From: Cyanobacteria bacterium UBA11153
GTDB taxonomy: Bacteria; Cyanobacteriota; Cyanobacteriia; Cyanobacteriales; Coleofasciculaceae
DNA length: 32,532 bases
Reading direction: 5' to 3'
NCBI GenBank assembly: GCA_003511885.1
Contig: DOIX01000021.1
Span: 14,008-46,539, forward strand
Part shown: piece by piece, positions 3,012-24,856 of the stretch
How positions within the stretch are numbered: position 1 is the stretch's first letter
How the letters are laid out: every line of letters starts with the position of its first letter
The notes under the pieces: model-generated
Databases searched by the model: none
Seen by the model: the letters and a program-made list of their open reading frames with translations, nothing else
What the model was told of the DNA's origin: nothing
Made by a program: the position numbers and the translations under genes

Positions 3012-5297
3012 ATGAATAAAATAATTGGAATAGGATTAACAGGAATAATCGCCACCGTACCCATAATATCCTACGCGAGTGCGGCATCAGCCCAAGCAAC
3101 ACCAACACTTATAAGACAAGGATTTGGCTTACTAAATCAAGGGCGAATCCAAGATGCGATCGCAATTTTTGAACAAGCGGTGCAGCGCTATCCGGATTCC
3201 TTGGAAGCTAAGTTAGGTTTGGCTATTTCTTATCGGCGACAGGGATTAATTCCCCAAGCTTGGAGTGCTTATCAACAAGTGCTAGTCCAAGATCCTAATA
3301 ATCAATTAGCATTGAAAGCAGTAGGTTTATTGGGGACTTATCGTAGCGAGTGGCAAGTCAGAGGAATTGAAGCCTTAACTACTTTATTAAATATTAATCC
3401 TAATGATAACGAAGCCCGTGGTATTCGTGCCTTACTTTATGGATATCAACAGCGATTTATTGAAGCTATTGCTGACTATCAAATTGTACTGCAAGCTAAT
3501 CCGACACCAGAAATAATCTTAGGTGCTGCCGAAACCTATACTAATGCAGGAAATTTCCAACAAGGATTAGATTTATTTAATCGTTACCTCGCTACAGGTG
3601 GTAAACCAATTACTGGTTTTCCCGCCCTCGCTTATGCCCGTGCCTTGCGAGAAACTGGCAATCCAGGCGGGGCAATTCAAGTATTAGAAAATCAACTAAG
3701 AATCTCTCCCCAATTAGATGAATTAGGAATCCAAACGCGGGCATCTCTATCTCAAGCCTATCTCGCTAATCGACAGATAAATGAAGCACTAAACGTATTA
3801 GCCCCATTGCAAGGAATTCCCGCTGCTGCCTTACCTTTAGCGAGATCCTTAAATGAAATTAGAAATAAAACCAATAATCCTGCCCTAACGCCACAAGTTG
3901 TTAGTTTATATCGTCAAGTATTAGCCCAAACACCAAATCCCGATCCCAAATTTCTCCGAGAAGTAGCAGATATTTTCAGTAGCATACCATCAGAAAGACA
4001 AACCGCACTCCAAATATATCGACAACTTTCCAGCCTCGAACCCAATAACCGCACCCTAATTATCAAACAATTAGCCTTAGAAAGCCAACTGGGATTAATA
4101 TCTAAAGCCGATTTGCGATCCCGTTTATTTGCAGCCGTACAACCTCTACCCGCAGATCCCAATGAAAGACAACAACTAGCTCAAAGTTTAGCAGGAATCG
4201 ATCCGCCAGGACCAGAATTTATTGCTGTTTATTTCGGCTTACTCCAATCGGGTGCTAACGTGCCCTTTTTAAATTTCCGCATCGCCCAACTTTTAATTGA
4301 AAATGGCGATTTAGGAGGGGCAAGACAAGCATTAGCTGCTTACGCATCTACCCCAGAAGGCGCAAAAGATTTAGCTCCGCAATTATTAGCAGCCGAAATT
4401 GAAAGACGAGAAGGTAATTTAGAAGGAAGTGCCTATCGCTATCAAGCTTTAATTGCTAGTAATCCATCGGATCCAGATATTCTAACTGGCGCATTGCGAG
4501 GTTTAGCCACAGTGCGAGTACAACAGAATCGCCCCATCGATGCCCTAGTCATATTTGACCAAATAATTGCCCGCAATCCCCAAGATTTAACCTTACAATT
4601 AGCCCGTACATCTCTAGCTTATGAAGCGAAAGTCATTTCCGAATTACAAGCCGAGGGAATTATTAATTACTGGTTTCAAAGCCAACCACCTAACTATGCA
4701 CCACCAGAATTATTTGCTCTAGTTGGCACATTACCCGCCAATCCTAAACGAGAAGCAATATACAATTACCTCCTCCAAATCGATCCCAATAATATTCCCA
4801 TCAACATTCGCGCCATTCAAGTTATCGCCCAGAGAAGTCCAGAACAAGCTAGAGTAAGAGTAAATCAATTAGTAGCTCGAGATCCGAATAATATTCGCAG
4901 TTACTTTTTACAAGGAGAATTAGGACAAGCGATTAAAGATTTTGAATTAGCATCCCAAGCCTATCAAATTATATTAGCCGCCCAACCCAGCAATAAAGAT
5001 GCTTTATCTGCCTTAGCCGGAGTGCGATTTCAAGAGAGAAAATTTAATGATGCCGCTGATTTATATTATCAAGCATTGGCAATTAACCCAAACGATAAAG
5101 ATATTCGCCGGACTTTGCTAGATTTAGATAGAGCTAGAGACTTTCAAATGAAAGCATTTACTGAAATTGAGAGAATGCAAATTGAACAAATTCAAAATGG
5201 GGGAATAGTTAATAGCGATTTATCCCGTCGCCGTCAGGAAATTCAAGAAGATTTCTTGCAACGGCGGGGTTTTCAACCGCCTTGGGAACAGTATTGA
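3012..5297 (+). CDS. Exported tetratricopeptide-repeat protein, BcsC-like TPR region
   Basis: The 761-residue product starts at ATG 3012 and has a signal peptide: charged start, hydrophobic core through about residue 22, and an Ala-Ser-Ala-Gln-Ala cleavage region near residues 25-29. The rest is almost entirely tandem TPRs; recurring patterns are A..YQ..L...P.N and AL..L. at about 34-residue spacing. It resembles the periplasmic TPR part of cellulose/exopolysaccharide export proteins (BcsC type), but the C-terminus (residues 725-761) is charged and has no outer-membrane beta-barrel. A periplasmic scaffolding role in polysaccharide export or envelope assembly is plausible. No synthase lies nearby, so this is family-level inference. 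The leader is A-rich, with no obvious Shine-Dalgarno. Confidence 0.8.
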   Translation: MNKIIGIGLTGIIATVPIISYASAASAQATPTLIRQGFGLLNQGRIQDAIAIFEQAVQRYPDSLEAKLGLAISYRRQGLIPQAWSAYQQVLVQDPNNQLALKAVGLLGTYRSEWQVRGIEALTTLLNINPNDNEARGIRALLYGYQQRFIEAIADYQIVLQANPTPEIILGAAETYTNAGNFQQGLDLFNRYLATGGKPITGFPALAYARALRETGNPGGAIQVLENQLRISPQLDELGIQTRASLSQAYLANRQINEALNVLAPLQGIPAAALPLARSLNEIRNKTNNPALTPQVVSLYRQVLAQTPNPDPKFLREVADIFSSIPSERQTALQIYRQLSSLEPNNRTLIIKQLALESQLGLISKADLRSRLFAAVQPLPADPNERQQLAQSLAGIDPPGPEFIAVYFGLLQSGANVPFLNFRIAQLLIENGDLGGARQALAAYASTPEGAKDLAPQLLAAEIERREGNLEGSAYRYQALIASNPSDPDILTGALRGLATVRVQQNRPIDALVIFDQIIARNPQDLTLQLARTSLAYEAKVISELQAEGIINYWFQSQPPNYAPPELFALVGTLPANPKREAIYNYLLQIDPNNIPINIRAIQVIAQRSPEQARVRVNQLVARDPNNIRSYFLQGELGQAIKDFELASQAYQIILAAQPSNKDALSALAGVRFQERKFNDAADLYYQALAINPNDKDIRRTLLDLDRARDFQMKAFTEIERMQIEQIQNGGIVNSDLSRRRQEIQEDFLQRRGFQPPWEQY

Positions 5298-5332
5298 TAA
5301 AGGGGTTGATGTGGGATTTTTTTCAGAAGCCA

Positions 5333-5788
5333 TTACTGGATTATTCGCCATTCACGGGCATCAACAAATTGAGATAAATGTGCTACATTAGTGGTAGCAA
5401 TTATAACTTCATGCCCCTCCTCTGCTATCAATGCCGCCTGAGCTGCTAAAATTACATCACCATCCAAAGCTTTAGAGTCAGCGGTTGGTTTTCCTTCCTG
5501 TCTTGCTTGTGCCCAAAAATCGGCAGCCTTAAGCATTACTTCTGTAGTGATAGGCAAGTAGCAAAGGATAACCTTAAGTTGGTTAAGTCGTTGAATACCT
5601 GCTATTTTACCTGCCCGAAGCAATTCACGTCGAACTTCATAGTCTGCGATTTCAGGTAACATCACTGTGTAGCCCTTTTGCTCCAGAGAATTGAACCAAA
5701 GTTTGCATTCATGACATATAAGTGATTTCGCTTTAGGAGTGGTAACCATTCCTAAAGGGCCAGAATCTAGTAATATTATTTTGCTCAT
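5333..5788 (-). CDS. PIN-domain ribonuclease, toxin of a type II toxin-antitoxin pair
   Basis: The 151-residue protein has the PIN acidic set: Asp8 in LLDSGPLG, Glu46/Glu51 in the LPEIADYEVRREL helix, Asp111 in LDGDVILAA, and the late strand ATTNVAHLSQF (compare TRNxxHF of VapC-like proteins). PIN proteins are Mg-dependent RNases, and VapC types cut tRNA or rRNA. It lies eight bases downstream of a small acidic protein on the same strand, the usual antitoxin-first order. The gene is convergent with the TPR gene, whose stop is 35 bases away. Toxin identity is well supported; the RNA target is unknown. Confidence 0.85.
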   Translation of the reverse strand: MSKIILLDSGPLGMVTTPKAKSLICHECKLWFNSLEQKGYTVMLPEIADYEVRRELLRAGKIAGIQRLNQLKVILCYLPITTEVMLKAADFWAQARQEGKPTADSKALDGDVILAAQAALIAEEGHEVIIATTNVAHLSQFVDAREWRIIQ

Positions 5789-5796
5789 GGAATGAT

Positions 5797-6156
5797 TTAT
5801 ATTGATACGGGATTTTCTTCTAGGTTTTGACAGAGAATTTCAGCGGTTTCTGTTTGCTCTGCTTCATCTCCATCTTCTTCCCATTTCCTTAACAATTCAC
5901 TCAACGCAATCTGCTGCACAGCTTTCTTTACAGGATGAGGATTCTTAATTCCATCCATCGCCTTTACCCAAGCATCTGACGATACTGGCTTCATTGTGAC
6001 GCTTTCACGAAATAAACGCACGATTTGCAGTAAATTGGGCAAATATTCGTCTGGTGTTTGCTGAATTTCGAGCATTAACTTGGCGAGGAGATAGTTTTCA
6101 TGTGCAACTTCTGTACTCGGTATGTTGGTTAAACTACTTAAATTTTGCTCAGACAT
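5797..6156 (-). CDS. Probable antitoxin partner of the adjacent PIN protein
   Basis: The 119-residue protein is encoded immediately upstream of the PIN gene with an eight-base gap. It is acidic at the C-terminus (EEDGDEAEQTETAEILCQNL), helical, and has no recognisable DNA-binding motif. The middle (MLEIQQTPDEYLPNLLQIVR) resembles the dimer/helix region of small cyanobacterial antitoxin-like proteins. Assignment rests mainly on gene order. A near copy of its last 48 bases appears at 8303-8350, downstream of the hicB gene, showing that this antitoxin family was once present twice in the island. Confidence 0.65.
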   Translation of the reverse strand: MSEQNLSSLTNIPSTEVAHENYLLAKLMLEIQQTPDEYLPNLLQIVRLFRESVTMKPVSSDAWVKAMDGIKNPHPVKKAVQQIALSELLRKWEEDGDEAEQTETAEILCQNLEENPVSI

Positions 6157-6602
6157 ATTTTCCTCCCTAGATTGGATTTCTCCCTTACCATAAAAATCAG
6201 TAAGGTGGATATTTTTCCACTATACCTCAAGTATCTTACTTAATTTTAGGATATTTTGATTGGGGTTTTCGATTTGATAGTCATATATTTAATGTAGCGC
6301 GATCAACTTTGCTGCTGCCGCAGGCAATCTTACTCAACCAGAACAGGTTTTTCATCTAGTAATCTGGATTGAGGAGATTGAGCTGCAATGGGAGGGTTTC
6401 CATCCAGCGCGATCCCGCGCTACTTTATGTTATACAAAAATTATAACACTAACAACGCTGAACTAAATAATTAAACAGCCTAATACATTTGAAATAAATT
6501 AAATTGAAAATAATATCGAACAATTCATGCCGTCAAAAACATTGATTTATTGCTTAATGATAATGATAAAATTATCGAATAAACAAATTAAAAAATATAT
6601 CC
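6157..6602. other. AT-rich intergenic region with a possible coding remnant
   Basis: This 446-base gap separates divergent genes and should contain both promoters. Plus-strand codons from about 6292 to the TAA at 6464-6466 are open and read like protein (for example NLTQPEQVFHLVIWIEEIEL), but there is no in-frame start and a stop lies just upstream, so it could be a gene remnant. The flanking words GCGCGATC at 6298 and 6408 are repeated. The final 130 bases are very AT-rich. Confidence 0.35.
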
Positions 6603-7781
6603 ATGACTCGATTTGTCCACGATCAATTTGCTAAAGACTTATTAGATGAAATCCTTGGCTATATGAGAACAGGAAATCCCGCACAAGAGGTAGCTTCTGA
6701 AGTTAAACAGATTGATTTTTACTTCACGCCAAGTCCAGAGAAGCCAGATTATTTAGAATATAGAGAGAAGTTGGGATTATTAGGCAAAATGGCGACAACT
6801 CCAGCGTTGTTTGAACCATTTCGCAATGGTGTAACTGTGGATGATGTCCAGAGTTGTATGAGTAAATTGTGGGATGTAACTGCCAAACTTAAGCGACAAG
6901 CCCGTCGCGAAAATACTACTATTAGTGAATCAGAATTGCCTTTTTTATGGATTTTAACTCCCACAGCTTCAACGAGTTTGTTAAAGGGATTTAAGGCGAC
7001 GGCTGATGAAAAGAATTGGGGCAAAGGAATTTATTTTTTTGGTAGGCATTGGCGAGGGGCGCTTGTGGTGATTCATCAGTTGCCGAAAACGCCGGAGACT
7101 ATCTGGTTGCGGATTTTGGGAAAGGGTAAGGTACAAGCTGAGGCAATTACATCTCTGGGCGCTTTGCCCGTGGACGATCCTTTGCGGGTAAATGTGCTAA
7201 ACTTAGTTTATCAGTTACAACAAAATTTACGTGTTAATCAGTCAGAAAAGTCGGAATTAGAAGCACAGGAGGATGAGAATTTAATTATGGCGATCGCTCC
7301 TTTATTTCAAGAACAGTTACAAGCGGCTGAACAAAAAGGTATTGAACGTGGAATTCAGCAAGGAAAACAAGAAGGTAGAGAAGAAGGTATTCAACAAGGG
7401 CTTTCACAAGGATTAGAAAGAGGAAGACAAGAACAGCAACGTTTAATTTTAGATAATTTTCTCGGAGCCAGATTTGGGGAATTAGATGAAAAAATGATCG
7501 GTTTCATACCGAGTTTATCTACTTTGTCTGCTCCTGATTTTACAAGAATGTTACTGTCAATATCGCTCTTTCCTGTCGATGAAAATGGTCGTCAGGAAGC
7601 GATGAGATTATTAGCGGAAAATGTTTTGAGGTTGCGGGGAAATGAATTAGGGGATATCCTCCCGACAGTTGTGACTAATTTGCTGGCATTATCAGGAGAA
7701 GAATTGAGATTGTTGTTGGAGAGATTGCCTCAGTTATCGACGGATGAATTGCTAAATTTGTTGGGAGAGAGGCGAGAATAA
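6603..7781 (+). CDS. Rpn-like PD-(D/E)XK family protein with Gln/Glu/Gly-rich linker
   Basis: The 392-residue product belongs to a large cyanobacterial family related to Rpn/transposase-like nucleases. The N-terminus (MTRFVHDQFAKDLLDEILGY) and EVKQIDFYF (Asp38) match the start of the PD-(D/E)XK fold, with further nuclease-domain strands through about residue 200. Residues about 235-280 form the family's typical repeat of GIQQGKQEGREEGIQQG character, predicted as a long charged helix. Residues 285-392 are a helical C-terminal domain. Rpn proteins nick DNA and promote recombination, but activity here is unproven. The gene has its own leader and is not coupled to its neighbours. The start at 6603 gives the usual family N-terminus. 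Confidence 0.7.
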   Translation: MTRFVHDQFAKDLLDEILGYMRTGNPAQEVASEVKQIDFYFTPSPEKPDYLEYREKLGLLGKMATTPALFEPFRNGVTVDDVQSCMSKLWDVTAKLKRQARRENTTISESELPFLWILTPTASTSLLKGFKATADEKNWGKGIYFFGRHWRGALVVIHQLPKTPETIWLRILGKGKVQAEAITSLGALPVDDPLRVNVLNLVYQLQQNLRVNQSEKSELEAQEDENLIMAIAPLFQEQLQAAEQKGIERGIQQGKQEGREEGIQQGLSQGLERGRQEQQRLILDNFLGARFGELDEKMIGFIPSLSTLSAPDFTRMLLSISLFPVDENGRQEAMRLLAENVLRLRGNELGDILPTVVTNLLALSGEELRLLLERLPQLSTDELLNLLGERRE

Positions 7782-7815
7782 TTGGGTGGGATTTATTTGA
7801 GGGGGGAACTTAGGT

Positions 7816-7842
7816 GGTGCGTTACACGCTCGCTAACGCACC
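7816..7842. repeat. Palindromic GGTGCGTTA/TAACGCACC hairpin, copy 1
   Basis: Perfect nine-base arms at 7816-7824 and 7834-7842 enclose a nine-base loop. The same arms with a different loop recur at 30360-30386. No T-run follows, so it is a dispersed palindrome rather than a standard terminator, although it sits 35 bases after a stop codon. Confidence 0.8.
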
Positions 7843-7948
7843 TGAAAAGATTTGCGATCGCACTTTTGTTGATACAGTGGGATTATTGGGATAAATTAGT
7901 CTTGATAAAAAGCGATCGCAAACCTGATAAGTTAATGAGGAAGGAGAA

Positions 7949-8050
7949 GTGATTATTATACCGAAAAAAGGAGGTAAAAAAGTCAAAAGAACTTATATTG
8001 AAGAAACCATTAGATTACTAGATTTAGCAAACTGCAAAGATGAAAAATAA
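7949..8050 (+). CDS. Short 33-codon ORF overlapping hicB; possible remnant of a HicA-like toxin
   Basis: A GTG at 7949 preceded by GGAG (7943-7946) opens a 33-codon frame, with IIIPKKGGKKVKRTYIEET in its first part. The stop at 8048-8050 overlaps the hicB start at 8040, as partner genes in toxin-antitoxin operons do. The sequence loosely resembles the C-terminal strand and helix of HicA toxins (IPxxGG..K..TI..I), so it may be what is left of the HicA partner. It could equally be a leader peptide. Support is weak. Confidence 0.35.
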   Translation: MIIIPKKGGKKVKRTYIEETIRLLDLANCKDEK

Positions 8051-8294
8051 TTATCAGATCGAACAGCAATCTTTAGAGTATTATCTATCTTTAAGATATC
8101 CGATGTCTATTTACCCAGAAGATGATGGAGGATATACAGTAATTATCCCTGATTTACCAGGCTGCATGAGTCAGGGAGAAACCTTAGAAGAAGTACTTGA
8201 AAATATTAATGAAGCCAGAGAGTTATGGATCGAAACAGTTTACTCTAGTGGGAAAAAGCCAATTCCTTTGCCTTCTAAGCGAATTTATATCTAA
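8040..8294 (+). CDS. hicB: HicB-family antitoxin
   Basis: The 84-residue protein has the HicB partial RNase H-like fold: YPMSIYPEDDGGYTVIIPDL followed by PGCMSQGETLEEVLENINEA and a Trp-Ile-Glu-Thr helix. The YxxxIP.DLPGC.S.G.T pattern is diagnostic. HicB binds and neutralises the dsRBD-like RNase HicA and often represses its operon. There is no C-terminal DNA-binding extension, and no complete hicA lies next to it; only a 33-codon ORF overlaps its start. It is therefore either a solitary antitoxin or one that lost its toxin. Family assignment is strong. Confidence 0.85.
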   Translation: MKNNYQIEQQSLEYYLSLRYPMSIYPEDDGGYTVIIPDLPGCMSQGETLEEVLENINEARELWIETVYSSGKKPIPLPSKRIYI

Positions 8295-8295
8295 G

Positions 8296-8350
8296 CTACA
8301 AAATTGATACGGGATTTTCTGCTAGGGTTTGACTGAGAATATCAGCGGCT
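8296..8350 (-). pseudogene. Decayed 3' end of a second copy of the 5797-6156 antitoxin gene
   Basis: Bases 8303-8350 match 5801-5848, the 3' end of the antitoxin gene, at 43 of 48 positions and in the same (minus) orientation. Read on the minus strand, the segment gives AADILSQTLAENPVSIL and then a stop, against the antitoxin's C-terminal EILCQNLEENPVSI. Nothing upstream of it remains recognisable. It marks a duplication or recombination junction between hicB and the next toxin pair. Confidence 0.7.
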
Positions 8351-8374
8351 ATCGCAAACTTGACAATTTTAGGT

Positions 8375-8380
8375 TATAAT
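8375..8380 (+). promoter_or_regulatory. Possible -10 box of the RNase/immunity pair
   Basis: A perfect TATAAT at 8375-8380 lies 33 bases before the TTG start at 8414. A TTGACA at 8360-8365 is only nine bases away, too close for a sigma-70 pair, so only the -10 is proposed. Confidence 0.3.
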
Positions 8381-8413
8381 GGCGCTATCAACTATAAAAT
8401 ATAGGAGAATTTA

Positions 8414-8854
8414 TTGGCATCAGATGAGTTAGAAACTATCGAAATTGTTGAAGCAGATATTATTGATTCAACCGTTGAAGTAGGGAGTGGGTGTATTTGG
8501 CGAGGGAGTGGTAAAGAGCCTCAATGGGATAATCCTAAATCAACTAAAGCTTACGATCATATTATCCGTCATCATGGTTCTAAGCTCAAATCTAGTAATT
8601 TACAGGGAAGAGCAGCGAGTAATAATAAAGCTCAAGGACAATGGTTAAACGATCGAGATTGGATAATAGCGGAAAAATTAATTCCTAAGTATTATGGGCA
8701 ATATACAATCAAGTTTCATCGCCCAATTGGTAGAGTTTATCATCCTGATGGCAGGATTACGGAAAATGTTTGCTATGTTCAAATAGGGAGAAATGTTGAC
8801 GGTACAATTAAATATGCTTATCCAATTGTTAAGCCTTACATAAAAAATAATTGA
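8414..8854 (+). CDS. Predicted BECR-fold RNase toxin domain (EndoU/colicin-like), stand-alone
   Basis: The 146-residue protein starts at TTG 8414, with AGGAG at 8403-8407 setting the start; no in-frame ATG is near. After an acidic N-terminal 25 residues comes a toxin-like module. Its parts are AYDHIIRHHGSKL (His49, His53, His54), GQWLNDRDWI (Trp77), a strand IKFHRPIGRVYHPDGR, and a final NVDGTIKYAYPI. The H...G / QW / IG / dG-I-x-x-AYP series matches the C-terminal RNase domains of polymorphic toxins in the Barnase-EndoU-colicin-RelE superfamily. There is no secretion leader or delivery domain, so it probably acts inside the cell as a toxin-antitoxin toxin. The following gene, 17 bases away, looks like its neutraliser. 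Fold assignment is by pattern only. Confidence 0.6.
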   Translation: MASDELETIEIVEADIIDSTVEVGSGCIWRGSGKEPQWDNPKSTKAYDHIIRHHGSKLKSSNLQGRAASNNKAQGQWLNDRDWIIAEKLIPKYYGQYTIKFHRPIGRVYHPDGRITENVCYVQIGRNVDGTIKYAYPIVKPYIKNN

Positions 8855-17424: not shown

Positions 17425-19026
17425 CTAAACTAGTTCCTCGCACACTAATTGGGCTAACTTTTGCGCTGCACCGGGTTTACCTCGTACCCCACGCAAACGC
17501 GATCGCATTTTTGCTAATTTCTCTGGATTATCCAGATAATCCAGAACCAATTTTGCCACATCCTCCGGCTGAAGTTTACCCACTAATTCTGGTACAATTT
17601 CCGACTTTGCCCAAATATTAGGCCATGCAAATAAACCTCCCTTTCGCAAAACTTTCTGGAAAACAAACCAGTTAATTAACTTAGCAAAAATAGACCCCAC
17701 TCCTGGCAAATTTGCCAATAATCCAGGCAAACCATCCCAACTCCGCATCGCATCCAATTGATTAGTCGGAAGTAAAATAATCATCGGTATTCCTAATGAA
17801 CCTAATTCAGCAGTATTTGCCCCTACTGTAGTCAAGCATATTTGGCATTGAGATAAAAGATGATAAGCCGGAAACTCTTGCCAAAGTTCAACAAATAAAC
17901 CCTTACTTGTCTTGATAAATGGTTTTTGGTAATTGGATGAATCGCCAATTTTTAAAGATGAATTAACAGGAGTAGTGAGAGGAGCCTGTTTTGGCAAAGA
18001 TACTGGGAAGTCGCCACAATTTTCACCCCCCCAACCCCCCTTATTAAAGGGGGGAGCAAGAAGATAATCTCGGTTTTTGCTAAATTGGGATGCTCCCGAA
18101 GTAGTTTCTGGTTTGCTCGATCCGAGCTTATCTGTATTTTCTGCTATAATTAGTTCAGCACTTGCCCAGCCAAATTTGTTAATTAGTGGATTTTGTTGCG
18201 GATTAGCAAAAGATACCAAAGTTTCCAAATCTAAAGTTGGTGCAACCGGAATAGCAAAGCGAATTTCGGGTTTAGCTGCGCTAATATATTCTGCGATTGC
18301 TAAAGTTAAAGGTAATCCCTGTGTTAGTTTAGCAGCTTTAGATCCGGGAAATAAGGCAATTAAGTCTGGTAATGGATGGGTAGGCGATTTAGTAGCGGAT
18401 GGGTTATCGGTGGGAGGTGAAGTTTCTGGAGAAATAGAAAGATTTTCAGCAATTGGTAAACTATCGCCACCAACCGATAACCCATCCGCTATCTCACGAT
18501 TAACATTGCCACCAACAGACAAACCATCCCCAGGTAAATCCGACATTAAATCTCCCACAACAGTAAACTTATCAGCATACTTTTGGGGCACGCGAGCCAT
18601 AGTTTCAGCCTTCATCACCCCAAAAGAATCGATTAAAGAATGCCACCTGGCTTCCCATTCCCCATAAACAACAGTACGATAACCTAAACGCTTACCAATA
18701 ACAACAGTAAAAAATTGATCTCCACCCAAGAAAACCACCACACCTTTAGCTCGCCAATCCCAATTTTGGGCAGTTTTACCCCATAGCAAAAACGACCAAA
18801 AATACTCTGGACTTTGCACTCTATCTACCTCAGAATAGGAAAGTGCGATTGCAGCTTCTTTACCAGTAGCATTAGGGCATGGGGATAAGATAACGGAAAT
18901 TCTGATTAAATCTGAATCATTGCCTAATTGTTGCCTCAAGGCTTTGACTACAGGCAGTACCCAGGTAGTTACTTCTCCCGGGCCGTTAGATAGAATTATG
19001 ATATCAATTGGATCTCTTAATGGCAC
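17425..19026 (-). CDS. LpxB-related glycosyltransferase-like protein with two repeat-derived insertions
   Basis: The 533-residue protein starts at ATG 19026 and matches the cyanobacterial 'lipid-A-disaccharide synthase-related' family. The N-terminal half has ILSNGPGEVTTWVLPVVKAL, VVFLGGDQFF and TVVGDLMSD; the C-terminal half has ALFPGSKAAKL, CLTTVGANTAELGSLGIP and a final GKPGAAQKLAQLV. It is about 100 residues longer than I expect. The excess is in two low-complexity inserts: residues about 166-219 (repeats of DGLSVGG, then SPPTDNPSA) and about 299-377 (containing LLAPPFNKGGWGGE). Both are encoded by palindromic repeats. Whether it still works is unclear, but the frame is intact and the core motifs flank the inserts. 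The role is probably in glycolipid metabolism, by family only. Confidence 0.8.
   Translation of the reverse strand: MPLRDPIDIIILSNGPGEVTTWVLPVVKALRQQLGNDSDLIRISVILSPCPNATGKEAAIALSYSEVDRVQSPEYFWSFLLWGKTAQNWDWRAKGVVVFLGGDQFFTVVIGKRLGYRTVVYGEWEARWHSLIDSFGVMKAETMARVPQKYADKFTVVGDLMSDLPGDGLSVGGNVNREIADGLSVGGDSLPIAENLSISPETSPPTDNPSATKSPTHPLPDLIALFPGSKAAKLTQGLPLTLAIAEYISAAKPEIRFAIPVAPTLDLETLVSFANPQQNPLINKFGWASAELIIAENTDKLGSSKPETTSGASQFSKNRDYLLAPPFNKGGWGGENCGDFPVSLPKQAPLTTPVNSSLKIGDSSNYQKPFIKTSKGLFVELWQEFPAYHLLSQCQICLTTVGANTAELGSLGIPMIILLPTNQLDAMRSWDGLPGLLANLPGVGSIFAKLINWFVFQKVLRKGGLFAWPNIWAKSEIVPELVGKLQPEDVAKLVLDYLDNPEKLAKMRSRLRGVRGKPGAAQKLAQLVCEELV
18025..18060. repeat. C/G-run palindrome inside the LpxB-related gene
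   Basis: Arms CCCCCC at 18035-18040 and GGGGGG at 18049-18054 flank TTATTAAA. The same family lies between genes at 16480-16560, 21201-21310 and 26231-26368. Here it is translated in frame as part of APPFNKGGWGG. Confidence 0.85.
18393..18491. repeat. Inverted repeat inside the LpxB-related gene
   Basis: Perfect 19-base arms at 18393-18411 and 18473-18491 (TAGCGGATGGGTTATCGGT and its complement) lie in the first insert. A weaker third copy follows at about 18512-18533. Together they encode the repeated DGLSVGG-type peptides. Confidence 0.85.
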
Positions 19027-22043: not shown

Positions 22044-22286
22044 ATGTTAGTACTGCACAAACCGACTGGCGCGTTGGTAGAAGTCCTGACGCTGGAAAGC
22101 CTTTATAATCCGTGCATGATGGAGATTATGGGTCAATTGCAGGCAGGAGAAGAAATGCAAGATCCCGAATCTTTCCCCAAATCGGATTTAGTATTTCCCT
22201 CTGGTGAATCTCTGCCTCGTTGCTGGTTAGATTCTCACTATCGCGAACATAATCTTAACAAAATGGATTTAGCGATCGCAGTTTAA
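22044..22286 (+). CDS. Small conserved cyanobacterial protein of unknown function
   Basis: I start at ATG 22044 because AAGGGGAGG (22031-22039) stands just before it. An upstream in-frame Met at 21993 lacks a ribosome site and adds an unlikely 17 residues. The 80-residue soluble protein begins MLVLHKPTGALVEVLTLESL and ends with the codons of a HIP1 octamer (AIAV). It has a compact sequence with DLVFPSGESLPRCWLDSHYR. No family function is known to me. A strong hairpin lies directly after it. Confidence 0.75.
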   Translation: MLVLHKPTGALVEVLTLESLYNPCMMEIMGQLQAGEEMQDPESFPKSDLVFPSGESLPRCWLDSHYREHNLNKMDLAIAV

Positions 22287-22340
22287 AGAATTATGTCCAG
22301 TAGGGTGTGTGCGTGGGAGCATCCTACTGGACATAATTCT
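22287..22340. terminator. Perfect 18-base hairpin between convergent genes, probable bidirectional terminator
   Basis: Arms at 22287-22304 and 22323-22340 (AGAATTATGTCCAGTAGG and its exact complement) enclose an 18-base loop. A T/C-rich run follows on the plus strand. It lies between a plus-strand stop and a minus-strand stop. Confidence 0.75.
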
Positions 22341-22373
22341 TTTCTCTTCCTTCGTGTCTTGGTGTCTTTGTGG

Positions 22374-23339
22374 TTAAATAATTCCGTGTTGCCGACAATC
22401 CTCTTCGTATAAAGTTTTCAAGAAAACAGGAATATGATATCTAGTATCACTACTTTTCTCCTTATAAAATTCTGCTATTTGTAGTAATAGCATATCTCTA
22501 TATACCCCGACTTCTCTCGTCCAGTCAATGGGAGGTTGAATTTTGTGCCAGTAATCCTTTACTTGTTTAATTGTCAACAAAGCATAGATTAACTGATTTT
22601 TGCTCGTCTCATCTTGGGCATTTTGAAACTCAGTTTTCCAGGAATCCTGTAATTTATCCACTCCAGTACAATCCAATCCAGCACAATAGCTAATACGTTT
22701 GGATGCTGTTTGTAATTTTTCCTGTAAAGCCATATCCCTATCAATTCCATCTACCATATCCATATAAACTTTTTCCAGCACTATAGGATTGCCCTTATAA
22801 ATAGGAGTGCCGGAAAGATAATTATCAAAGATGGGCTGAAGTTCTGGTACAATAAAATACGCTTCCTTATAGATTAATCCTGTCACCCATATCCGGTGAT
22901 TTATCGCATTTTTATCGTTAACTTTGCCTTTCTCATATAAAGAGTAGAAAATTGCTTCTGTATCTGGAAAGGAATAATTATCAATAGTTTTCACTTGCAA
23001 ATCCAAATCGACAATAGCGAAAAGCTTTTCTGGCGTTAAATAAGAATTACTGCTATCTTCAGCGTGTAACTCAGAAAGGGCGAAGTAAGTATCGATTACA
23101 TCTTGACGATCCCCACAATTAAAAAACTGAGGTCGATAATTTTTATTCCAGTACTTTGGTACACAGGCTTGATAAAAGTTAGAATCTGGCATTTGTTCCA
23201 TTTTGCCATAAGATTGAGGTGACAATCTGCCCTCCTCTTTAATTCCCCCTTCGCATAGCACCACAATCTTATTTTTAATTCTCCGAGATTTCAGAATATA
23301 TTGACAGTGTTGTTTTAACTCTTGTTGACTGAGACTCAT
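22374..23339 (-). CDS. DUF4435/TOPRIM-like putative nuclease, downstream partner of the ATPase
   Basis: The 321-residue protein has the order of a TOPRIM nuclease: Glu30 in IVVLCEGG, an Asp-X-Asp at 111/113 in FAIVDLDLQ, and Glu159 in TGLIYKEAYFIVPEL, which aligns with the I-E-N-Y-L position of DUF4435/OLD-type TOPRIMs. The C-terminal half is helical. Such domains cut DNA or RNA in OLD, PARIS (AriB) and retron modules. It starts at ATG 23339, only two bases after the ATPase stop, so the two form an operon. The order ATPase then TOPRIM matches PARIS. Motifs are seen; catalysis and defence are inference. Confidence 0.65.
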   Translation of the reverse strand: MSLSQQELKQHCQYILKSRRIKNKIVVLCEGGIKEEGRLSPQSYGKMEQMPDSNFYQACVPKYWNKNYRPQFFNCGDRQDVIDTYFALSELHAEDSSNSYLTPEKLFAIVDLDLQVKTIDNYSFPDTEAIFYSLYEKGKVNDKNAINHRIWVTGLIYKEAYFIVPELQPIFDNYLSGTPIYKGNPIVLEKVYMDMVDGIDRDMALQEKLQTASKRISYCAGLDCTGVDKLQDSWKTEFQNAQDETSKNQLIYALLTIKQVKDYWHKIQPPIDWTREVGVYRDMLLLQIAEFYKEKSSDTRYHIPVFLKTLYEEDCRQHGII

Positions 23340-23341
23340 TG

Positions 23342-24553
23342 CTAATTTTGTGATTCCGGTTTGATAAGTTTAGGTTCAATTTCCTTGACATGACTAGGCG
23401 TAAGGGCTTGGCATAATTCATAAGAGTGAGTTGCTAGAATATATTGATTATTCGGTGCCCATTCTTTGAGATCGGAAATAATTTGATATTGCCAATCCGG
23501 ATGAAAAGCGATTTCAATTTCATCCATGAGGACAATCGCATCTTCTATATTACGATATTTGAGCCATATATAAATACTGAGTCTTTTTAGTTCGCCATGA
23601 CTTAAATCTTCTGGATAAAGTTCTATAGTTTCTCCATCTTTGTCTAATGTGAAGCTGATTCCGGAAAAATCTGTGGTAATATTTACTTTTTTATTACCTA
23701 ATACCAATTTCAGTTCATTTAATATTGCCTGGTAATTATTACCATATTCACCTGTTTCTATCGCTTGTCTGAAATCGCGATCGCGAGCAGCTATAAATGC
23801 CTCTATCAAAAGTTCTACAGCAACAAAATCATAAGCAAAGAAGCCAGGTAGCTTAGATTTGGCTTCTTCAAAATGTAAATAATAATTTGATTGATCATTT
23901 TCCTTCCTAAATAATAATTTTCGACATTCTTGAGAAAGAAAAAGAAAAACTTGGGTAGCAGGAGCTGCTAAAAATACTTGTTTTGATAATTCTTGTAGAA
24001 AATATTCTGCTTCTGTTATATCTATACCATCTATATGACATAGCAAAATTGCTGCTGTTTCTTCTTCGTTATTATATAGTTCTTCTGTTTGTTTGTAGTC
24101 ACATATATATAGTAATCCTTCTGAAGTGAAATAGGATTCTATTTTTTGACTTATTTCATCTTGCCGTATGCTAATATAATCATCATTATATTTTAAATTC
24201 AATTGGCTATTTTGATATTTTTCATTCAATAAATGTTTGAAATAAAAATATGGATAAGAAGAAAAATTAATTTGTATAGTTTTCTCTGAATGCCAAATAT
24301 CAATTATTGCTAAAACCCTTTTATCCTCATCTTCACGAATTTTAAATCCTTGAAGTAGATTTTTCAAAAATTCTATTTGTTCAGGTTTGATAGAACAATG
24401 TAATAGTATAAAAATTAATTGTAAAAGCGTACTCTTACCCCCACCATTGAGACTGCCAAGAGGAAAGATGGGAGGCTCAAATTCCTTCTCGAAGATAATA
24501 TCAACATCCTTTAAAACTCGGAAATCGGGAACTTGAATTCGTTGCAGGTGCAT
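23342..24553 (-). CDS. AAA/ABC-type ATPase of an OLD/PARIS-like module
   Basis: I start at ATG 24553 because AAGAGGA lies seven bases upstream; the longer frame would need a TTG at 24583. The 403-residue protein carries a Walker A variant (SLNGGGKST, residues 34-42, with Ser for the first Gly), an ABC signature (LSHGELKRLSIY), Walker B IVLMDEIEIAFHP and a switch His in LATHSYEL. It belongs to the SMC/RecF-like AAA_15 group used in defence. The TOPRIM gene follows after two bases. In PARIS the ATPase holds the nuclease inactive until a trigger appears; that role here is inference. No restriction genes are near. Confidence 0.75.
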   Translation of the reverse strand: MHLQRIQVPDFRVLKDVDIIFEKEFEPPIFPLGSLNGGGKSTLLQLIFILLHCSIKPEQIEFLKNLLQGFKIREDEDKRVLAIIDIWHSEKTIQINFSSYPYFYFKHLLNEKYQNSQLNLKYNDDYISIRQDEISQKIESYFTSEGLLYICDYKQTEELYNNEEETAAILLCHIDGIDITEAEYFLQELSKQVFLAAPATQVFLFLSQECRKLLFRKENDQSNYYLHFEEAKSKLPGFFAYDFVAVELLIEAFIAARDRDFRQAIETGEYGNNYQAILNELKLVLGNKKVNITTDFSGISFTLDKDGETIELYPEDLSHGELKRLSIYIWLKYRNIEDAIVLMDEIEIAFHPDWQYQIISDLKEWAPNNQYILATHSYELCQALTPSHVKEIEPKLIKPESQN

Positions 24554-24593
24554 ATATAAATCCTCTTGTTTAGTAAGTATCAACTATTCATTG

Positions 24594-24621
24594 TCAATCG
24601 TCAATCGTCAATAGTCAAACG
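24594..24621. repeat. Heptanucleotide repeat (TCAATCG), four units
   Basis: Units TCAATCG, TCAATCG, TCAATAG and TCAAACG run without gaps between the lone antitoxin gene and the ATPase start, in the ATPase leader. Confidence 0.8.
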
Positions 24622-24628
24622 TACTTCA

Positions 24629-24856
24629 TTACGATAAAAGTCCCCTAATCTGAGCCAATCCTTCTTCTCCTGAAATTGGTTTAACCGCACCACTGCGGAT
24701 TTCATCCCGACGTTTCTTGGCTTCATTAGTCCATAACGTTTGAATTGTTTCGTCTAGATCCAATTCCAGACTTTCAACCAGTTTATCTGCTAGTATAGCT
24801 CTCAATGCGCTCGGCAAAGATAAAGCTTCGGTCATCAGTTGATCGATTGATAGCAT
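24629..24856 (-). CDS. Addiction-module antitoxin, TIGR02574-like
   Basis: The 75-residue protein matches the short 'putative addiction module component' family: LMTEALSLPSALRAILADKL, VESLELDLDE, a Trp-x-x-Glu-Ala (WTNEAKKRRDEI) and GAVKPISGEEGLAQIRGLL. These proteins usually sit just upstream of a ParE/RelE toxin. No toxin gene follows; the next gene on the strand is the ATPase, 76 bases downstream beyond the heptamer repeat. It is therefore an orphan, or the operon's regulator. Family is well supported; role in the neighbouring module is not. Confidence 0.8.
   Translation of the reverse strand: MLSIDQLMTEALSLPSALRAILADKLVESLELDLDETIQTLWTNEAKKRRDEIRSGAVKPISGEEGLAQIRGLLS

Follow-up and report, generated by a model that had tools for sequence, protein, structure and literature searches.

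A PARIS-like gene pair of an ATPase and a predicted TOPRIM protein in cyanobacteria and some other bacteria

Two adjacent genes of Cyanobacteria bacterium UBA11153 raise the question of whether they form a divergent PARIS system or a new ATPase-nuclease system, the two options that a sequence-only reading had left for them. They lie in a stretch of 32,532 nucleotides, here called the window (assembly GCA_003511885.1, contig DOIX01000021.1, positions 14,008 to 46,539). Open frames, pairing, conserved motifs, predicted folds and structural relatives were computed, and the analysis favours, with somewhat better than even confidence, a cassette that is a sequence-distinct sister of PARIS and would work like PARIS, but falls outside the rule published for detecting PARIS. 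The gene pair is probably defensive.

The proposed ATPase-TOPRIM operon with PARIS-like gene order was borne out. Both genes are on the minus strand, 2 bases apart, in separate frames with a stop and a new start, exactly where they had been placed. The first (23342..24553, ATG at 24553) encodes an ATP-binding cassette (ABC)-type ATPase of 403 amino acids, similar to AriA and PtuA, and the second (22374..23339, ATG at 23339) a 321-residue protein with a predicted TOPRIM fold, AriB-like by predicted structure only and here called the partner. The ATPase matches the Pfam families AAA_15 (9e-14, 52.3 bits) and AAA_21 (4.7e-13, 50.3 bits). Its Walker A motif (S-L-N-G-G-G-K-S-T, residues 34-42, 24428..24454) carries Ser at the first Gly position; Ser34 and N36-T42 are invariant in the 73 relatives that pass a length filter of 350-570 amino acids. 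This oddity is real but not unique, since 6 of the 28 DUF4435 comparator loci with a Walker A pattern (30 examined) also have Ser or Ala at this position. The ABC signature LSHGE (residues 317-321, 23591..23605) has S318, G320 and E321, and Walker B, IVLMDE (residues 340-345, 23519..23536), has D344 and E345, all in 73/73; His376 is a further motif residue. A length-variable region spans 36-178 residues across relatives. The description of the protein as SMC-like (structural maintenance of chromosomes) holds for the ATPase head only, as the 403-residue model has no long coiled coil.

In the partner, Glu, Asp-X-Asp and Glu do occupy the TOPRIM positions, as had been claimed. Among 72 relatives of 290-360 amino acids, shorter decayed copies having been dropped beforehand, Glu30 after strand 1 (23250..23252), the position of the TOPRIM catalytic Glu, is kept in 71; both Asp residues of Asp111-Leu-Asp113 (23001..23009), the DxD at the end of strand 3 (106-112 in the model), and the Lys158-Glu159 pair after strand 4 (22863..22868) are kept in all. 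The patterns used to fetch the loci held E30 or K158-E159, which means that these residues were in part chosen by the search; D111 and D113 lie outside the patterns. In a profile alignment Glu30 falls on the Glu of the DUF4435 and RloB sets, and it is the counterpart of the AriB catalytic Glu26 by position and profile alignment, not by residue-level alignment to AriB. The second protein is predicted to have a TOPRIM fold, with AriB as its best structural match over most of its length, and the best profile hits did not go to a non-defence family.

The two genes form a unit. Relatives of the partner numbered 507 by protein search and 771 homologous clusters by profile search (best 120 listed), and 80 of 85 relatives were kept at fetching; the loci from the species-level genome collection number 79. 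The ATPase or its remnant lies directly beside the partner in 76 of these; among the exceptions, L122 and L132 have the partner at a contig end or close to one, and in L125 the partner is split but still comes after an ATPase that is intact. Neighbour clustering within 8 kb found only the ATPase (76) and partner (79) families throughout. In the window's phylum, the partner is present in 20 of 386 genomes at an expectation (E) value of 1e-3, one of them a match judged to be chance (G392; E 3.4e-4, 19.8 bits, inside a 923-codon frame), and the ATPase family, at E 1e-30, is present in exactly the other 19; this cut-off was chosen to exclude generic ATPases, for which 85 of 147 genomes give a match at 1e-3. 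ATPase and partner distances are correlated (r 0.84, 69 pairs, not corrected for the species tree). In a set of 147 genomes 26 have the partner, a count that takes in the window's own genome and fragments; G001, the one other genome of the window's genus that was searched, has it. By taxon label, the 79 loci comprise 55 cyanobacteria, 9 Thiotrichaceae/Thiomargarita/Beggiatoa, 12 Methylococcales and one each of Planctomycetota, Bacteroidota and Chloroflexaceae, the last (L120) not being counted as Chloroflexota. Both genes are broken in three loci (L089, L128, L130), the partner alone in L120 and L125 and the ATPase alone in L113; L132, whose partner frame starts 62 bases from a contig end, was left out of this count. 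In L130, a Candidatus Parabeggiatoa bin, positions 4723-8621 hold two inverted ATPase copies, each split in two frames, possibly an assembly artefact or a duplication. A Prochloron didemni contig (L105/L049) carries the cassette in two tandem copies, the second partner frame stopping at 87 codons, roughly 245 bases short of the contig end.

A check for conserved neighbours across the 79 loci found the pairing kept and the sites different between groups. The next commonest neighbour, an aminotransferase taken for LL-diaminopimelate aminotransferase (dapL), occurs in 18 of 79 loci, and a gene taken for leuS in 10; these names and that of pqqB were assigned from the look of the sequences. At Methylovulum sites, pqqB-like (PF12706) and PqqC-family (PF03070) genes stand on two sides of the cassette, and a Thiotrichaceae bin has it near a glutamyl-tRNA-synthetase-type gene. 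A PqqC-family gene directly follows the cassette in four Methylococcales loci (L117, 4772-9679; L116; L119; L121), 23 bases after the partner in L117, and a pqqB-like gene lies upstream in L117 and L116. The tree does not demonstrate several horizontal transfers: the 18 gammaproteobacterial rows need 3 tree changes, of which well-supported branches force only 1.

How might such a cassette work? In the available text of PMC12409363, AriA holds AriB inactive and frees it on a phage trigger, and an AriB dimer cuts tRNA; the accessible part of PMC10440598 describes AAA ATPases paired with separate TOPRIM_OLD toxins that passed neutralisation assays in Escherichia coli. Because of the analogy with these pairs, sequestration, triggered release and RNA cleavage are proposed here as well; release, RNA target and defence, like sequestration, are carried over from PARIS. 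The ABC-type ATPase would form an oligomer in which the TOPRIM nuclease is kept inactive, and would sense an infection cue, perhaps via its length-variable insert. An ATP-dependent rearrangement would then release the nuclease, a putative two-metal enzyme (Glu30, Asp111, Asp113), which would cleave a nucleic acid essential to the cell, with tRNA or another RNA as the most likely target, and so halt growth and phage production.

Several results weigh against this reading. The ATPase is similar to AriA but tied with or second to PtuA: PtuA leads by profile (1.1e-19 versus 2.6e-17), against PDB by sequence (retron PtuA 7.1e-9, AriA 5.1e-5) and with the family profile (1.3e-13 versus 1.8e-9), and in Foldseek. 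The suggested profile comparison with AriA, AriB and Septu thus gave an AriA-like ATPase for which PtuA scores higher, and a partner without an AriB match. AriB ranks first for the partner in Foldseek, but distantly (E 5.4e-3, template modelling score 0.32), and the mean predicted local distance difference test score is at most 75 in 2 of 5 partner models. Membership of the partner in DUF4435 or AriB failed by sequence: DUF4435 (PF14491) gave no match in the window protein, short of the 27 bits of the PARIS rule, and the PADLOC AriB profile gave none at E 1 among 27 family members, while as a positive control it finds three cyanobacterial DUF4435 proteins (7e-24 to 1.7e-46). As to context, the neighbours include several housekeeping genes, and some sites recur within lineages, a pattern that many mobile defence genes do not show. 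No homologue was found in IMG/VR with profile-derived patterns, nor in the phage and plasmid collections with the window protein alone as query. A PADLOC scan of the immediate neighbours gave matches to 115 families at E 1e-10, 25 of them listed, none common to more than 4 of 94 proteins, a crude figure without a baseline (94 of 120 neighbours, near-duplicate sites left out; loci L058, L068 and L107 and frames under 90 amino acids excluded); single neighbours match RTasHel, Type II methyltransferase, GajB and PD-T4-6 models. In the available parts of two reports, deleting either gene of E. coli PARIS is non-toxic (PMC9122126), and some OLD-family ATPases, such as Cran1, are not defensive (PMC12796447). 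Given the absence from viral, phage and plasmid collections, the decayed copies, the differing sites and the lack of a widely shared defence neighbour, the pair is an accessory, mostly solitary chromosomal cassette, a distribution that fits defence but also a lineage-specific regulator.

The sequence relatives of the partner bear on a rival explanation, an AbiL/RloB-type abortive-infection pair whose partner would belong to the RloB/AbiLii rather than the AriB branch of TOPRIM proteins. The window partner has no Pfam, NCBIfam or PDB sequence match; its PADLOC match is a weak one to AbiLii (0.0037), a profile that matches 3 of 27 members (best 5.4e-5) and also recognises an RloB protein (2.1e-31). 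In profile-profile comparison RloB scored highest (37.7, above 30/30 shuffles, probability 55), against 36.2 for the mixed DUF4435 set. Of two DUF4435 subsets, the four-protein D4435a beats its 30 shuffles with a probability of only 4, and the larger D4435b stays within its shuffles, as does DUF4276 (15.9); the sequence link to DUF4435 is weak and rests mainly on the mixed set. DUF4435 itself matches 2 of 27 members (best E 0.016), more weakly than the chance-like DUF4905 (2/27, 0.0013), the best of 17 scattered Pfam families found at E up to 1 and taken as chance, like AbiEii (PADLOC, one member, 0.0059) and the matches of the family profile to PDB. Pfam DUF4276 and RloB gave no match, and no HNH profile was among the matches, in the window protein and 27 members; the model is TOPRIM. 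DUF4435 proteins gave no sequence bridge to AriB in PDB, and a viral fold library held nothing at E 0.001 or below, its best entry being an RloB-like protein (E 0.076). The AbiL/RloB explanation nevertheless seems unlikely: RloB-locus ATPases form a clade separate from those of the family, and RloB frames mostly have 200-240 codons against 321 amino acids. The partner's best structural match, AriB, covers most of its length, a ranking that says nothing on the AbiL/RloB fit, as the PDB matches shown held no AbiLii or RloB structure.

The other two rivals concern function. A module for regulation or repair in large or filamentous bacteria that plays no part against phages, like archaeal Cran1, would agree with the absence from the collections searched and with the housekeeping neighbours, one of them recurring in 18 of 79 loci; yet only 19 of 386 cyanobacterial genomes carry the pair, which points to an accessory rather than a core function, both genes are broken in three loci, and neighbours differ between groups, so that we think it improbable. 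A stand-alone toxin-antitoxin cassette, in which the ATPase neutralises a TOPRIM toxin and the main selection is for maintenance or stress growth arrest, has its precedent in the AAA-neutralised TOPRIM_OLD toxins above and would suit the loci with a broken partner and an intact ATPase. L113 shows the reverse, however, so that this asymmetry means little, and neither deletion in E. coli PARIS was toxic; this explanation overlaps with the preferred PARIS-sister reading and, taken separately, has a low probability. A bolder proposal, which we hold tentatively and with the balance leaning against it, is that the cassette belongs to a fourth, so far undescribed branch of ATPase-TOPRIM immunity with two genes, which filamentous and giant bacteria would favour and whose nuclease and variable sensor insert would recognise triggers and RNA targets unlike those of PARIS, AbiL and HEC-01. 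The available text of a review on OLD leaves the number of ATPase-TOPRIM classes open (PMC10568477).

The lone antitoxin noted upstream is present on the same strand (24629..24856, minus; PF09720, 1.9e-13), separated from the ATPase start by 75 bases, but is not part of the set. A third cassette component was ruled out by its absence at E 1e-3 from the 79 loci, the sole match being the window's own genome, and by its occurrence with ParE and no operon in G007. Of 30 loci at the dapL site, three carry it, those of the window's genome, of G001 and of G007. In G007 (locus L247) it is 77% identical and overlaps a ParE toxin (PF05016, 3.6e-9), with neither partner match nor operon. In the window the antitoxin is whole, and a toxin frame begins at its stop and ends after four codons. 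Because of this truncation and the complete pair in G007, it reads as a relic of another toxin-antitoxin pair. Short TCAATCG-like tandem repeats lie between the truncated toxin frame and the ATPase start (within 24554-24856). On the 3′ side of the operon, a perfect inverted repeat, two 20-base arms around an 18-base loop (22285..22342), whose central 28-base core is single-copy in the genome at up to 3 mismatches, is a possible terminator between convergent genes. Elsewhere, a 533-residue frame (17425-19026) contains in-frame repeat-like stretches (SVGG..SPPTDNPSA, PPFNKGGWGG), as though interspersed repeats had invaded a protein-coding gene.

The cassette allows the reach of ATPase-TOPRIM immunity to be tested in hosts little used in such work, namely mat-forming cyanobacteria, Beggiatoa/Thiomargarita relatives and methanotrophs. 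The published PARIS census needed both AAA and DUF4435 profiles and would leave out a cassette of the same predicted folds with a profile-invisible effector; with PADLOC-DB 2.0.0, only the ATPase of the pair matched clearly. In the literature on PARIS/Septu, RloB/AbiL/DUF4276, AriB and cyanobacterial/Thiomargarita TOPRIM nucleases, partially covered through titles and abstract openings with few subscription papers, no account of the family was found.

Compared with known systems, OLD, Gabija GajA and Retron-Eco8 combine ATPase and TOPRIM in one chain, whereas two genes are used here, and Gabija has a helicase gene, whereas no helicase family is common to the neighbours of the cassette. The PtuB protein of Septu and of retron I-A (PtuA-PtuB) is an HNH nuclease, unlike the partner with its predicted TOPRIM fold. 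HEC-01/DUF4276 likewise has a small partner at an ATPase locus, common in related genomes (47/97 over the DUF4276 cut-off; one protein matches HEC-01B at 9.1e-78), but its ATPase falls in another clade and its effector shows no above-chance profile similarity. AbiL (AbiLi-AbiLii) and RloA/RloB share an ATPase plus a separate TOPRIM effector with weak profile similarity to the partner; their ATPase lies in another clade, the RloB-type effector is shorter and the sequence similarity is marginal.

PARIS differs in that the partner is undetectable as DUF4435 or AriB by sequence, in the length-variable region and invariant S-x-N-G-G-G-K-S-T Walker A of the family ATPase, and in that no phage or plasmid copies of the cassette were found. 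It resembles the cassette in having two adjacent genes, an AAA_15/AAA_21 ATPase and then a TOPRIM effector, in a partner predicted to have the AriB fold, and in AriB Glu26 and partner Glu30 with the TOPRIM acidic residues, by position and not by mutation. Further traits of PARIS are sequestration of its effector by a hexamer of the ATPase, an Ocr-type trigger and cleavage of tRNA. In addition, the ATPase tree (17 chosen of 73 family ATPases with 20/25, 25/30 and 26/30 comparator loci; PtuA not included and 5 further DUF4435 loci left out) groups the family with DUF4435-locus ATPases, one of which (L178) joins the family by a long branch that was marked as potentially false; an earlier tree was replaced because its motif filter was too strict and kept only 3 DUF4435 rows. 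In the window's genome DUF4435 also matches within a single frame of 583 codons whose N-terminal part carries a Walker A (G000:C381, L170 1282-2925), likely a fused AriAB, so that the PARIS-like cassette and a PARIS type can apparently coexist. In the available text of PMC9122126, PARIS detection sets cut-offs of 32 bits for AAA_15 or 27 bits for AAA_21, plus 27 bits for DUF4435; because the window ATPase exceeds both AAA limits and the partner does not reach that for DUF4435, the cassette is named PARIS-like rather than PARIS.
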